Program-made: the position numbers and the translations under genes
Shown here: positions 1 through 26,320 of the stretch, in pieces
How the letters are laid out: every line of letters begins with the position of its first letter
How positions within the stretch are numbered: position 1 is the first letter of the stretch
The notes under the pieces: model-generated
Database searches by the model: none
What the model saw: the letters and a program-made list of their open reading frames with translations, nothing else
What the model was told of the DNA's origin: nothing
Origin: a virus
DNA: 27,185 nucleotides
Reading direction: 5' to 3' (one strand)
IMG/VR virus record: IMGVR_UViG_3300042448_001938
Coordinates: 1-27,185 of that record

Positions 1-825
1 CGAATTATAGTGAGGCACATTTGCATGGTAATCAATTAGGTGAAACAAAGATGTGACTGATGCAGACCATTGTTCTTTAGTTTGCTCAAAATCTTTTTCG
101 TATTTGATCCAATAGTTACGATCCAAATCACGATCTTCACTAAGCAAGTTGTATAGGTTACGAGAAGTTTTGATACGATCAAAGATGCCACGACCGTCTG
201 ACCAGGTTGGAATTGTTTTCTTAAGTGCATCCCTAAAGCGCCCAAGCATTGATGAAATGTTTCTACCCTTTGCGTTCCAGCCACTGACGTTATACATCCA
301 ACGGGTTTGATCATTACCATCAATGATGTTTTGTTTGGTAACCAGTTCGGTCTTGTAGTAATAATTAGAACGACCAATTTCTGATATAGTGTATTGTTCC
401 AGGTTATTTCTAACCTGGTAATCCAGCATCTTACGAGTGGCGGCTGTGTCCTTGAAGCAGTAAGTGTAGCCATATACATAGTCATTCTCTTTGCCTTTAG
501 GTGGCAGCCATGCTGCTACCCATACGCCTTCGTAGTGGTACATCACTGCATGGACAACGTACTCTACGTTGGGAATGTTACCGACAGGTAACCTGAATTC
601 ATGGTGCCTATCAGGAGCAGCTGATGCATTAATAGTATCAACTGCTTCTTGCTGCAACGATTCTCTTACAATATCCAATGGCATCAACTGTGGTGGATTG
701 CCAAGTGGATATTTAGATTTCTTGGTAGTTGCTTTGGCTTGCTTGTCAGTACGTGCGAACTTCTTGAGTGTTGGATCGTAAGGAATAAGTTCGTTTTGAA
801 GATTGGTCGGAAGACGAAATTCCAT
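1..825 (-). CDS. Unrecognised phage protein, 3' end cut by window
   Basis: The reading frame opens with ATG at 825-823 and stays open to base 1, giving 275 residues with no stop, so the C-terminus lies outside the window. The start follows the G-poor leader AACTCACC-ATG, which recurs in this module. After a Lys-rich N-terminus comes a mixed alpha/beta region rich in Tyr and Trp (for example VWVAAWLPPKGKENDYVYGY near residue 100), followed by charged helical sequence. I see no catalytic motif and no membrane segment. The upstream neighbour ends 61 bases away across repeat copy 1, so the two probably share a leftward transcript. Function unknown; the long open frame and the start context make the gene itself convincing. 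Confidence 0.8.
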   Translation of the reverse strand, partial: MEFRLPTNLQNELIPYDPTLKKFARTDKQAKATTKKSKYPLGNPPQLMPLDIVRESLQQEAVDTINASAAPDRHHEFRLPVGNIPNVEYVVHAVMYHYEGVWVAAWLPPKGKENDYVYGYTYCFKDTAATRKMLDYQVRNNLEQYTISEIGRSNYYYKTELVTKQNIIDGNDQTRWMYNVSGWNAKGRNISSMLGRFRDALKKTIPTWSDGRGIFDRIKTSRNLYNLLSEDRDLDRNYWIKYEKDFEQTKEQWSASVTSLFHLIDYHANVPHYNS

Positions 826-855
826 GGTGAGTTCAGGGTTAAGTTCGTAGTGTAA

Positions 856-888
856 GCAGTTTAACGTCATGCTCAGGACGTGGTGTTA
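856..888 (-). repeat. 33-base stop-anchored repeat, copy 1
   Basis: GCAGTTTAACGTC, then ATGCTCAG, then GACGTGGTGTTA; ACGTC (864-868) pairs with GACGT (877-881). Identical over 33 bases to copy 2 at 1786-1818. Its last three bases are the stop codon of gene 886-1758. Confidence 0.85.
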
Positions 889-1758: not shown

Positions 1759-1785
1759 GGGTGTGCAATTGAATTAAAATGATGA

Positions 1786-1818
1786 GCAGTTTAACGTCAT
1801 GCTCAGGACGTGGTGTTA
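1786..1818 (-). repeat. 33-base stop-anchored repeat, copy 2
   Basis: Exact copy of 856-888, including the ACGTC/GACGT stem. Its last three bases are the stop codon of gene 1816-1989, so the repeat keeps the same register to the upstream gene although the two genes are unrelated. Confidence 0.85.
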
Positions 1819-4027: not shown

Positions 4028-4475
4028 CAGCAGTAGTACGGACGTTCTTCGGGGTACGCTTTGGCGTACTCGTTGGAGAAGTTAACACACCATTGGGGCC
4101 ATCCAAGGTTGTCCTTCTTGTCGCCGTACGTTTCGAGTGCGTATTCTTCGAGTGCGATTGCTTCGCGGATGGCTTGCTTCTTGGAGAAGATACAGATTGT
4201 TTTGATGGGCCAGCCTGATTCGTAATACCATCCGCCTTCTTCTGGTCCACCGTAATGCAAGGTGCATTCGTGGAGTGTGATCGTAGTTGGTTCTTTGTCT
4301 TCAAACTTGGTTGACCAGTTGTAACAACTGATCCAACGACGAGCTGATTCTGTTTTGGCAAATGGATTTGCAGTAGGCATTTGATGAAGTCTCCAATGAG
4401 TGTGACGGTGAGTGATACTAGGACAATACCCAGTAGCACTGGGTCTTCATCCCAGATTTGTTTAGTGGTAGTCAT
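3996..4475 (-). CDS. Small membrane protein ORF fully overlapping its neighbour
   Basis: ATG 4475 follows GAGGT at ten bases, a fair Shine-Dalgarno, and lies in the last codons of the upstream gene. Residues 1-45 look real: a short acidic head (MTTTKQIWDEDP), a transmembrane helix (VLLGIVLVSLTVTLIGDFI) and a basic edge. The frame then stays open across the whole next gene and into the gene after it, giving a Ser/Thr/Lys/Arg-rich tail of about 115 residues. Either the tail is translated (overprinting) or a membrane micro-protein has lost its stop codon. The first 45 codons are the well-supported part. Confidence 0.45.
   Translation of the reverse strand: MTTTKQIWDEDPVLLGIVLVSLTVTLIGDFIKCLLQIHLPKQNQLVVGSVVTTGQPSLKTKNQLRSHSTNAPCITVDQKKADGITNQAGPSKQSVSSPRSKPSAKQSHSKNTHSKRTATRRTTLDGPNGVLTSPTSTPKRTPKNVRTTADVKSTGPAQT
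4027..4380 (-). CDS. Conserved-type phage hypothetical, GGPEEGGWYYESG motif
   Basis: This 117-residue protein has a central sequence LHYGGPEEGGWYYESGWP that I recall from hypothetical proteins of unrelated phages. It is followed by a strand and long helix (KKQAIREAIALEEYALETYG) and a Trp/Tyr-rich end (GWPQWCVNFSNEYAKAYPEE). No known activity. It starts at ATG 4380 and ends in a TGATG overlap with the winged-helix gene. The frame is also covered from end to end by the membrane-protein frame on the same strand. Its regular amino-acid mix marks this as the principal frame. Confidence 0.8.
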   Translation of the reverse strand: MPTANPFAKTESARRWISCYNWSTKFEDKEPTTITLHECTLHYGGPEEGGWYYESGWPIKTICIFSKKQAIREAIALEEYALETYGDKKDNLGWPQWCVNFSNEYAKAYPEERPYYC

Positions 4476-4665
4476 TGATTACATACCTCTCGTTGTAATG
4501 GTCACATGCGTAGCGTTCTTCATTTGATATCTCATCATTGAAAACGCCTGTCCAACCATCTTGTTCTGCTTCACGCATGGCTTCTTCCAATTCGTATATA
4601 CGATCAGCCATTGCGTCAAGAGCATCGGCATTGCGTTGTTCATCAATGAAGTCAGGGTCTCTCAT
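4462..4665 (-). CDS. Small acidic coiled-coil protein, 67 aa
   Basis: ATG 4665 follows CAATTCACACC with no Shine-Dalgarno, the clearest example of the leader motif of this module. The product is acidic and largely helical (NADALDAMADRIYELEEAMR), so a short coiled coil is likely, with an aromatic C-terminus (YNERYVINDYH). No family recognised. The structured repeat element at 4691-4794 lies directly upstream, so this gene is the one most likely to be controlled by that structure. Confidence 0.75.
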   Translation of the reverse strand: MRDPDFIDEQRNADALDAMADRIYELEEAMREAEQDGWTGVFNDEISNEERYACDHYNERYVINDYH

Positions 4666-4690
4666 GGTGTGAATTGCAGTGGTGTGTTGA

Positions 4691-4794
4691 GCAGTTTAAC
4701 GTCACCGAAGGTGGTAACACAATGCATTCCATTGAAAACAAAGGAACACATTGTGTCGCTACACTTCGTGTACTCAGGACGTGAGTGTTACCAC
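4691..4794 (-). repeat. Repeat copy 3, split by a three-hairpin insertion
   Basis: The left half GCAGTTTAACGTCA (4691-4704) and right half CTCAGGACGT (4773-4782) plus GTGTTA match the repeats at 856-888 and 1786-1818, but 68 bases separate them. The ACGTC/GACGT pairing is kept. The insert folds as CACC/GGTG (4703-4713), ACACAATG/CATTGTGT (4717-4724 with 4749-4756) topped by TTCC/GGAA, and TACAC/GTGTA around TTC (4760-4772). GTGGTAACAC (4711-4720) is also the inverse of GTGTTACCAC (4785-4794), so an alternative closing stem exists. A structured RNA is likely. Confidence 0.6.
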
Positions 4795-4809
4795 TTAAGG
4801 TATGAGTAG

Positions 4810-5262
4810 TTAAATGTTTACGTTCCTCCAAGCAAGTCCTTTGTGGATGTTGGAGATCGTGTGGTAACTGACGTTGAACTTGGCAGCAATTGCTTCGTAA
4901 GCTTGTTGCCTAGAACCAAATGCTTTCATGAAACGTTCATCGGTCAGTATCAGTTTGATTTGACGTGCCTGCTGTGGTGTCAACTTACAGTTGCCAACGG
5001 GAGAGTGCTTACCTTTCAAAGAAAGATAAGATGTTTCCAGCTGCGCTGCAGTGGAATGCTGGGTCTCCTTAACAGCCATTACCTTTGGTGCTGGCGGTTG
5101 AAGCGGGGGTCTGGGGGTTGTATCAAGCCCTGTAGTTTTGATGGGGAATCCAAGAGTCACTGATGTTCCGTCTTTAACGACGGAGATAGTGACCTTGCCT
5201 TCCCTTGTAATCACACTGACGTGATCAGGGGCTTGAACGTCTAGTTGACTGAGTGCTTCCAT
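4810..5262 (-). CDS. Helix-turn-helix protein, putative regulator
   Basis: The start ATG 5262 follows CAACTCAAACC; a longer in-frame start exists upstream but would cross the spacer hairpin. Of 150 residues, 1-45 form a small beta-rich domain (VITREGKVTISVVKDGTSVT) and 46-60 a Pro-rich linker. The C-terminal 118-146 is a helix-turn-helix (RQQAYEAIAAKFNVSYHTIS, then NIHKGLAW). The last part resembles the DNA-binding repeat at the end of HNH homing endonucleases (IxxILKGxxW), but no nuclease motif is present. It could be a regulator or an endonuclease remnant. The split repeat element lies immediately downstream. Confidence 0.7.
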   Translation of the reverse strand: MEALSQLDVQAPDHVSVITREGKVTISVVKDGTSVTLGFPIKTTGLDTTPRPPLQPPAPKVMAVKETQHSTAAQLETSYLSLKGKHSPVGNCKLTPQQARQIKLILTDERFMKAFGSRQQAYEAIAAKFNVSYHTISNIHKGLAWRNVNI

Positions 5263-5289
5263 GGTTTGAGTTGGTTGCTTGTATAGAGT

Positions 5290-5321
5290 ACCTGGCACCT
5301 ATCAGATGACAAGTACCAGGT
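5290..5321 (-). other. Spacer hairpin
   Basis: ACCTGG (5290-5295) pairs with CCAGGT (5316-5321); CACCT (5296-5300) can alternatively pair with AGGTG (5318-5322). It sits in the spacer between the gene ending at 5349 and the helix-turn-helix gene. No U-run. Confidence 0.45.
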
Positions 5322-6612: not shown

Positions 6613-6631
6613 GCCACACTCAGTGTGTGGC
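6613..6631 (-). other. Spacer hairpin near gene start
   Basis: GCCACAC (6613-6619) pairs with GTGTGGC (6625-6631), seven bases with a five-base loop, just upstream (minus sense) of the gene starting at 6597. Confidence 0.45.
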
Positions 6632-6640
6632 AATAACTGG

Positions 6641-6678
6641 GCAGGGGTTTGCACCCTGCTTCCCGCTTTTACGGATCA
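6641..6678 (-). repeat. Stop-anchored hairpin repeat, copy A
   Basis: On the minus strand it begins with the TGA stop of gene 6676-6966 (TGATCCGTAAAAGCGGG) and ends in a hairpin with arms GCAGGG/CCCTGC (6641-6646 with 6654-6659) and loop containing TGCAAAC. Copy B at 7016-7053 matches it at most positions and has changed both sides of the stem. Confidence 0.6.
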
Positions 6679-6966
6679 GTCGTTTTCGTATTCACTACAC
6701 GCTGTCCATATACGTTCTTCTTCACATTGGCGCATGTACTTGATGATTCCTTTGATCTCATCAAATGTTAAATGGCCGGTTGGATTGCGCATACCTGGAA
6801 ACCACACTTCATACGTGGGTTCTTGCCCTGGATTGTTAGACGCCATTAGTCCTGAACCTTGCGGTCCGGTAACAATGGATATCTCACCAACCAAAGCATC
6901 AACGTAAACCAGGTGATAACCACCAGGTACGTTGCTATGTTGTTTCCAACCTGTAGTCAGATCCAT
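6676..6966 (-). CDS. Small unrecognised protein, 96 aa
   Basis: The frame is open further upstream, but ATG 6966 has GGAG six bases before it and is preferred; upstream ATGs would begin inside the spacer. The protein starts MDLTTGWKQHSN, has a beta-rich first half with a Gly turn (YHLVYVDALVGEISIVTGPQ) and a helical second half (LTFDEIKGIIKYMRQCEEER). No family recognised. Its stop is built into repeat copy A. Confidence 0.7.
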   Translation of the reverse strand: MDLTTGWKQHSNVPGGYHLVYVDALVGEISIVTGPQGSGLMASNNPGQEPTYEVWFPGMRNPTGHLTFDEIKGIIKYMRQCEEERIWTACSEYEND

Positions 6967-7015
6967 GGATAACTCCATGTGTGCGGTGCCTATCTCCGCT
7001 GGAGGCAAGTGCTGG

Positions 7016-7053
7016 ACCAGGGTTTGCACCTGGCCACCCGCTTTAACGGATCA
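7016..7053 (-). repeat. Stop-anchored hairpin repeat, copy B
   Basis: On the minus strand it begins with the TGA stop of gene 7051-7209 (TGATCCGTTAAAGCGGG) and ends in a hairpin with arms CCAGG/CCTGG (7017-7021 with 7029-7033) and loop TGCAAAC. Compared with copy A the stem bases differ on both strands while pairing is kept. Confidence 0.6.
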
Positions 7054-7209
7054 ACATCCAAGCATCTCGTCCACATAGGACTTGATGACCTGGAGGTGCT
7101 GCTCACCGAGAGTCTGGCTATGACCATGCTCCAAGAGATCAAGGATCTCAAGCATGATCTTGTCGCCTACTTCCTCGCGGGAAAGCAGCTTGGCGGGGTT
7201 GATAGTCAC
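7051..7209 (-). CDS. Small helical protein with GTG start, 52 aa
   Basis: GTG 7209 is preceded by GGAG at eight bases, one of few clear Shine-Dalgarno sites in this module. The product (MTINPAKLLSREEVGDKIML, then helical LEILDLLEHGHSQTLGEQHL) is a short charged helical protein ending in Gly-Cys. It is the first gene after the putative leftward promoter at 7419-7447. No family recognised. Confidence 0.65.
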   Translation of the reverse strand: MTINPAKLLSREEVGDKIMLEILDLLEHGHSQTLGEQHLQVIKSYVDEMLGC

Positions 7210-25494: not shown

Positions 25495-26320
25495 AGCTAG
25501 TTCAGATCCTGGTAGGTATTTCCTTTCAAGATTTGGTAAATAGCTCCGTGATTGCAATCAAACTTTTCGGCAATCTTCCGATAAGAAAGACCAGCCTCTT
25601 TTAAAGATTTGATTTTAACCACGTCGTCCGAAGAAAACTTTCTCAAAGAGTTTTTCGGCCTTCCTTTACTGGCAAAACCATTGTTTTTGTAACAACCGTT
25701 TTTCCAAGCCCTTGTTAAATTTTCTTGTTTGGTAACGATCTCAAGATTATCAAGTCGATTATTCCTCTTGTTATTATCTTTGTGATCGACTTGAAGGGAA
25801 AAGTTACTGGTTCCATGGGAACGCAGATCCAATCCCAAAAAAGCCACAGCCATCAAGACATGAAGATGAAAACGCTTCCTCTTCCCATCTACAAGAATTG
25901 AAACTCGGTTATAAACACTGGTTGTACTGATAGACAGCTCTCGAAAATATTCTTGATTATCGGGATCAAGACGTTTCTCAAAAGCCTTACCTTCCTCAGT
26001 TAAGTAAAGATTACCAAATCCGGGAACAAGCTTTGGTTCCATGTTGTTCATAAACAAGTTTCCAAAGCATAGCATGCCTCAACTGAACGCTCAACGTTGT
26101 CACCTCACCGAGTAATCGATGAGTGCAAACTGGATGAATTCAGGGAAGCCCTAACGTCAAGCCGAGGGTAATCCTGAGCCAAGCCAATCAAGAACGTGAT
26201 TGGAAGGTGCAGAGACTACTGGGTGTAACACGATCTTGTTACGTAATACCAGAATTAGCGTCCGGCATCCCACAGGGATGAAGAGATAGTCCACCCCTCT
26301 AAGAAACTAGAGACCAGGAG
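25495..26320 (+). ncRNA. Group I intron, T4-like IA type, in the capsid gene
   Basis: Self-splicing intron with a full core: P2 CTCA-C-CGA/TCG-A-TGAG with GUAA tetraloop (26104-26123), P3 CTGGAT/GTCCGG (26130-26135, 26260-26265), P4 TTCAGG/CCTGAG (26139-26144, 26173-26178), P5 CCCT/AGGG, P6 CCAATCA/TGATTGG (26184-26203). P7 is GACTA/TAGTC (26214-26218, 26287-26291), with extra stems P7.1 CTGG/CCAG and P7.2 GTAACA/TGTTAC. P8 CATCCC/GGGATG (26266-26280) and P9 CTCTA/TAGAG complete it. The P7.1/P7.2 stems point to the IA subgroup. The guide CGTTGTCA (26095-26102) pairs with TGAT (25491-25494) and AACG (26321-26324), the splice-site U facing G. The intron ends in G 26320. Confidence 0.85.
25497..26051 (-). 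CDS. HNH homing endonuclease, antisense inside the intron
   Basis: This 184-residue protein (from ATG 26051; ATG 26042 and 26075 are alternatives) belongs to the HNH homing enzymes that cut intron-less alleles and spread the intron. An N-terminal beta region is followed by HLHVLMAVAFLG (62-73). The HNH core is 88-111 (VDHKDNNKRNNRLDNLEIVT, KQEN), with the DH pair at 89-90 and Asn residues as expected. The C-terminal 155-176 is a helix-turn-helix (LSYRKIAEKFDCNHGAIYQI). The gene is A/T-rich and runs opposite to the capsid gene. Its stop lies three bases inside the intron 5' end, and the gene sits between the 5' splice site and the guide. Confidence 0.9.
   Translation of the reverse strand: MNNMEPKLVPGFGNLYLTEEGKAFEKRLDPDNQEYFRELSISTTSVYNRVSILVDGKRKRFHLHVLMAVAFLGLDLRSHGTSNFSLQVDHKDNNKRNNRLDNLEIVTKQENLTRAWKNGCYKNNGFASKGRPKNSLRKFSSDDVVKIKSLKEAGLSYRKIAEKFDCNHGAIYQILKGNTYQDLN

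Follow-up and report, generated by a model that had tools for sequence, protein, structure and literature searches.

Coremin-like pseudoknots between the genes of cyanophages and other DNA phages: candidate exoribonuclease-resistant RNAs

Introduction

Upstream of a small phage gene of no assigned function, one copy of a short repeat is opened by an insertion, which raises the questions of which RNA structure the repeat encodes, whether the opened copy still forms it, and what such a structure might do between two genes. The window analysed here is the whole 27,185-base virus record IMGVR_UViG_3300042448_001938 (positions 1 to 27,185), assigned to an S-EIVl-like cyanophage on the basis of a large terminase that shares 82.5% identity with the counterpart of Synechococcus phage S-EIVl. 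The original prediction considered the opened copy to be a candidate structured RNA of the minus strand, with the repeat loop replaced by three hairpins and with a competing outer stem that looked like a switch.

The repeat as a pseudoknot

The repeat AGCAGTTTAACGTCA is indeed present three times exactly in the window (at 855, 1785 and 4690). When read on the minus strand, from which the neighbouring genes are also transcribed, its plain copies (880-853 and 1810-1783) correspond to CGUCCUGAGCAUGACGUUAAACUGCU. A blastn search with a 1-kb region yielded no match among phages, and further copies were therefore sought by scanning for patterns and with short queries. A 15-mer search of IMG/VR returned at least 119 stretches, and among the matches listed the loop (RAGYA) and the 3' flank (UGCUY) are complementary to each other; since the loop pairs with this flank, the element extends over 4688-4782 (table 1). 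With two helices, the first loop pairing with 3' sequence, and covariation, the comparison of sequences makes it nearly certain that the repeat is an H-type pseudoknot on the minus strand, not a simple hairpin, with the consensus CGUC-Y-U-RAGYA-D-GACG-NNAAAC-UGCUY, in which S1 is CGUC/GACG and S2 is formed by the loop and the 3' flank.

Covariation was followed in two further IMG/VR scans, leaving one helix free in each; the sequences selected are fixed at the other helix, so that each test informs on the freed helix only. With the 3' side of S1 freed, pairing was found in 134/134 and 133/134 unique cores at two positions, which show four and five pair types. With S2 freed, its three middle pairs are formed in 105-106 of 110 cores (A-U, G-C, U-A and C-G types), and all three together in 99 of them, as opposed to 0-1 after sliding by one or two bases. 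No shuffle attained the pairing values observed for S1 or S2; the cores come partly from related phages and hence are not independent, but shuffles and slides still fall far below them. Overall, each helix covaries strongly in more than 100 distinct IMG/VR sequences. When the spacer was left free, AAAC was found to end it in 397 of 421 descriptor matches, mostly as UUAAAC, while simulated sequence of the same make-up gave 21 descriptor matches, none of them with TTAAAC. Besides AAAC, the conserved features are Y5, A11-U23 and D12. In homologous loci S1 and S2 covary strongly, which upholds the proposal of a minus-strand structured RNA. The folding energy of the armed region beats that of 200/200 shuffles (z about −4).

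Nothing in the Rfam 15 scan of the window (E up to 5) corresponds to the element, the scan having returned just a group I intron and one match due to chance. The compactness and the conserved unpaired bases of the element, along with its location between cistrons and 5' of tRNAs (see below), would suit a self-cleaving ribozyme, or a processing site at which an RNase separates cistrons; the lack of a match to any Rfam family, ribozymes included, and the action of coremin, which has the same bases, as an exonuclease block make this explanation very unlikely. Two other structured motifs were noticed in the window. One, CUGGGC...GUAAGUCCCAG, precedes genes in related phages and has 130 unique pattern matches in IMG/VR, some by chance, with no Rfam match at the gathering threshold. 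The other, CUGAUCCGUUAAAGCGGG...GGUGCAAACC...CAGUUAUUGCC, which had no Rfam match in the window scan, shows compensating stem changes among 20 copies in the loci compared.

Table 1. Positions of the pseudoknot copies, their parts, the neighbouring genes and other features of the window.
Feature	Position	Strand	Remarks
Plain pseudoknot copy	853..880	minus	upstream of gene ending at window base 1
Plain pseudoknot copy	1783..1810	minus	upstream of ORF 886-1758
Armed pseudoknot element (coremin-like with hairpin arm)	4688..4782	minus	S1, S2 and spacer as in plain copies; homologues L122, L095, L303, L252 at same gene gap
S1 5' strand CGUC	4778..4781	minus	possible fifth pair A-U, 4782/4699; covaries CGUC/GACG, CGAC/GUCG, GGAC/GUCC
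S1 3' strand GACG	4700..4703	minus	partner of 4778..4781; covariation
S2 5' strand UGAGUA, within loop	4771..4776	minus	pairs with 4688-4693; covaries
S2 3' strand UGCUCA	4688..4693	minus	pairs with 4771-4776; covaries
Spacer UUAAAC, AAAC invariant	4694..4699	minus	matches coremin spacer; AAAC in 397/421 descriptor matches
67-nt insert in place of single junction base	4704..4770	minus	a single long hairpin arm (~4706-4768) in MFE folds of the four distinct homologous inserts
Small hairpin AGUG-GUAA-CACU	4784..4795	minus	directly 5' of element; half of the outer stem proposed originally
Gene 3' of armed element	4462..4665	minus	67 aa, no function assigned; homologues adjoin element in relatives
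Gene 5' of armed element	4810..5298	minus	helix-turn-helix-like C-terminus; weak PHROG match to HNH endonuclease family
Second intercistronic RNA motif, CUGGGC...GUAAGUCCCAG	2432-2464	minus	also in L120, L180, L259, L276, L266
Third structured motif	6629-6690 and 7004-7065	minus	
Group I intron	26070-26313	plus	Rfam RF00028, 88 bits; directly 5' of major capsid ORF
HNH endonuclease ORF	25497-26075	minus	opposite strand to group I intron, ends beside it
Major capsid ORF	begins 26384		

The hairpin arm

The stem ACGTC/GACGT is kept in the opened copy (4699-4703/4778-4782), as had been described. Its 8-base loop, believed to be replaced by about 74 bases, is opened as stated, but only 67 nt (4704-4770) are inserted and, because they come after the S2 strand of the loop, the latter is extended, not replaced. 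The insert takes the position of the one-base junction between S1 and S2, leaving both helices and the spacer intact.

Homologues of both genes flanking 4688-4782 were found in about 20 loci, and the orthologous gap holds the pseudoknot with or without the arm: the plain form fills it in, for example, L035, L287, L270, L007, L013 and L116, and the armed form in five sequences (the window, L122, L095, L303 and L252). In L120, L180, L259, L276 and L266 the same gap is occupied by another motif, CUGGGC...UAAGUCCCAG or near it, so that the second intercistronic motif of table 1 stands in for the pseudoknot in several relatives. The armed sequences have CGUC/GACG or GGAC/GUCC as S1 and GAGUA/UGCUC, GGGCA/UGCCU or GGAUA/UGUCC as S2; these concerted changes indicate that both helices survive the insertion.

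The four distinct inserts diverge over most of their sequence and each folds as a single long hairpin, with z values of −6.5 (window insert), −5.7, −2.7 and −5.6. The three hairpins initially envisaged are not favoured: forcing the first of them made the fold 4-8 kcal/mol worse in every homologue. The suggested switch between the hairpin set and a 10-bp outer stem is consistent with the presence of both arms, GTGGTAACAC/GTGTTACCAC, in the window and L122, and in these only; the stem is missing in L095, L303 and L252, all of which keep S1, S2 and the hairpin arm, and its 5' half sits in the small local hairpin at 4784..4795, similar to short hairpins that precede several plain copies. Such a switch is, in our opinion, hardly credible.

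Position between genes and spread among phages

The 369 distinct copies gathered are strongly biased towards intergenic positions, with 9% of them inside a sense ORF as compared with 77% for random places, and with median distances of 28 nt to the next start and 8 nt from the previous stop. The armed element of the window lies 22 nt upstream of gene 4462-4665, in agreement with the position first reported. For the first plain copy, the program-called start of the ORF at window 1-870 (minus strand), base 870, falls within the pseudoknot; the gene probably begins instead at the Met of MEFRLPTNLQ, like its homologue in S-EIVl, which is likewise preceded by the element.

Carriers include phages of Staphylococcus, Lactobacillus, Streptococcus, Geobacillus, Bacillus, Arthrobacter, Synechococcus and Nostoc, among others. 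Among isolated phages, the element is found in the gap 5' of scaffold or capsid genes in phiETA, Javan407, phiEF-1.1, D6E and Page, and precedes the SSB gene in S-EIVl, the primase gene in the crAss-like phage cr7_1 and the glutaredoxin gene in a Lentibacter phage. In Nostoc phage NMeng1 and Arthrobacter phage Molivia it lies 3-4 nt 5' of a tRNA. Other tRNA genes were noticed 3-13 nt 3' of elements in L331 (element 4136-4157, tRNA-Lys 4171-4244), L316 (1201-1234) and L319 (1201-1232). In one phage annotation the element carries a putative-promoter label, which is a prediction only.

The diversity of these genes bears on two alternatives. A metabolite riboswitch of the size and shape of preQ1-I would also be a small H-type pseudoknot upstream of genes. 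The genes downstream of the phage element share no common pathway (scaffold, SSB, primase, glutaredoxin, tRNA and genes with no assigned function) and many copies may be found in one genome, as in L026 with six within 13.8 kb, which makes a riboswitch highly improbable. Control of translation, with the pseudoknot acting as an operator or enhancer to which a protein or the ribosome binds, as in T4 gene 32 or the rpsO pseudoknot, would explain a site 20-30 nt 5' of start codons, as the median of 28 nt implies, and the copy preceding the SSB gene of S-EIVl; moreover, coremin blocks scanning eukaryotic ribosomes in vitro (PMC10520033). Against it stand the near-identical core that precedes many different genes in unrelated phages of distant hosts, the copies 3-13 nt 5' of tRNAs, which are untranslated, and the match to coremin, so that we regard this alternative as unlikely.

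The element is chiefly virus-borne: one exact form gave no more than seven stretches when 257 Gb of bacterial genomes were searched, as against at least 119 in viral contigs with a related pattern. A single 30-base query found nothing among 5,426 E. coli genomes, and 400 genomes surveyed within one bacterial class gave three matches only, not enough for a host statistic. Clear matches in isolated phages are mostly in those of Bacillota, cyanobacteria, Alphaproteobacteria and Actinomycetota, groups that possess RNase J. An exception to this pattern is represented by crAss-like phages (Crassvirales), which carry copies and in whose hosts RNase J is doubtful. A search for the RNase J family in the genomes behind the matches was clear in three, with no strong match in two Bacteroidetes bins, which are possibly incomplete or contain stray phage contigs. 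Two sets of candidates within chance expectation were left uncounted, namely matches in Vibrio phages, which are antisense to annotated genes, and that in E. coli phage flopper, which has one S1 mismatch and is far from a start.

Similarity to coremin and proposed function

Exoribonuclease-resistant RNAs (xrRNAs) are known from eukaryotic RNA viruses. Among them, coremin, or xrRNA-C, GUCCGAAGACGUUAAACUAC, is a plant-virus motif, found in benyviruses, cucumoviruses and other RNA viruses, where it stalls Xrn1 (PMC5869530, PMC10520033). Its loop must be YGAD or YGNNAD, five-base loops being not resistant in vitro and six-base loops of the right consensus resistant (PMC10520033), and changing the C and U of its spacer abolishes the block (PMC5869530, PMC10520033).

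The key bases of the phage element are identical to those of coremin. In the place of the ~4-bp 5' hairpin of coremin (hp1), with its C-G top pair, is S1, which covaries and has C-G on top in 291/313 cores. The loop begins with C/U (302/313), as does the coremin loop with Y, and ends with A (298/313) followed by U/A/G (299/313), as the coremin loop does with A-D, and the NNAAAC spacer is followed by U in 296/313 cores, in line with UUAAACU of coremin. The G at loop position 2 of coremin is absent from the extended form, which has U there in 291/313 cores, the window included, and so is the hairpin hp2 directly after the spacer, where S2 is located. Because of these two differences, the extended form is classed as a variant of coremin and not as a member, and S2 may replace both the G and hp2.

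A scan for true coremins with four-, five- or six-base loops found them in 20 viral contigs, all with six bases; the phage hexaloops CGAAAU, CGCAAU, CGGAAA, CGUGAA and CGUAAA are among the coremin loops reported to be Xrn1-resistant (PMC10520033). Stems similar to hp2 follow some of the exact copies (L262, L326, L327, L330, L340), not all. Exact coremin lies 26-36 nt 5' of genes in Lactobacillus prophage Lj928, with a near match in Synechococcus phage S-B43, and 13 nt 5' of the tRNA-Lys in L331; in L262 it directly follows an extended copy, in tandem. Judged by their letters, the exact hexaloop copies are much closer to coremin membership than the extended form.

In vitro, a flaviviral xrRNA blocks RNase J1 (PMC5760640). 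By taking into account this finding, the match of the core to coremin, the covariation of both helices, the location between cistrons or 5' of tRNAs and the prevalence of RNase J among the host groups, we propose that the element acts between cistrons as a coremin-type (xrRNA-C) exoribonuclease-resistant RNA and would stop RNase J there, a reading to which we assign a good probability. S1, the AAAC-U spacer and S2 would keep the RNA in a shape that makes an enzyme arriving from the 5' side stop on reaching S1, likely a coremin-like exonuclease block. The polycistronic phage mRNA would first be cut upstream of the element, and host RNase J would degrade it in the 5'-to-3' direction up to the element, leaving the 5' end of the downstream cistron or tRNA protected; the hairpin arm of the window copy probably stabilizes or tunes the block. 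More broadly, dsDNA phages of many bacterial phyla may use coremin-class RNAs against RNase J as segmental mRNA protectors, between cistrons or before tRNAs, as RNA viruses use the same against Xrn1, with the fold shared by phages and plant and fungal RNA viruses through common descent or convergence, and with some phage copies having gained a hairpin arm at the helix junction; this joint reading is held to be reasonably probable. If it is correct, 5'-to-3' mRNA decay would be a general front between phages and bacteria, phages would have a possible way of expressing the genes of one operon at different levels (for example, portal versus scaffold or capsid), and very short RNA parts for stabilizing bacterial messages would become available.

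Comparison with known systems

The original prediction had found no described element of this form, and this is correct for Rfam and for phages in the literature examined; the core does match the coremin xrRNA of RNA viruses. A literature search, with subscription papers and bioRxiv outside its scope, retrieved no phage or bacterial xrRNA of such a kind. The translational operator of T4 gene 32 is an H-type pseudoknot upstream of one phage gene and bound by its own product, similar in topology to the phage element and unrelated in sequence. The preQ1-I riboswitch, also a small H-type pseudoknot, differs in sequence and downstream genes, and the element has no match to it in Rfam. The start-associated sequences of cluster K mycobacteriophages are a repeated short motif directly 5' of phage genes; their sequence is different and, to our knowledge, no pseudoknot has been described in them.

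The flaviviral and tombusviral/solemoviral xrRNAs share the function proposed here, but they are larger and unrelated in sequence, with solved ring folds. In L262 (minus strand, 1479-1499 and 2547-2567), L323 and L337, exact coremins are immediately followed by tRNA-like RNAs with a T-arm and, in L262, also an acceptor stem, the latter containing two units, each with a pseudoknot and a coremin in tandem; these tRNA-like RNAs were not called as tRNAs by ARAGORN (L262) or Rfam, and the layout recalls that of some plant viral RNAs, which combine an xrRNA with a tRNA-like end. With coremin itself the phage element shares the stem, the first (Y) and last (A-D) loop bases and the spacer UUAAACU, and the phage copies with six-base loops are letter-for-letter the same motif. 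The main phage form differs in its 8-base loop, which forms S2 with the 3' flank, and in not requiring hp2, and the window form adds the hairpin arm; the carriers of coremin are RNA viruses of eukaryotes, whereas those of the element are DNA phages of bacteria.
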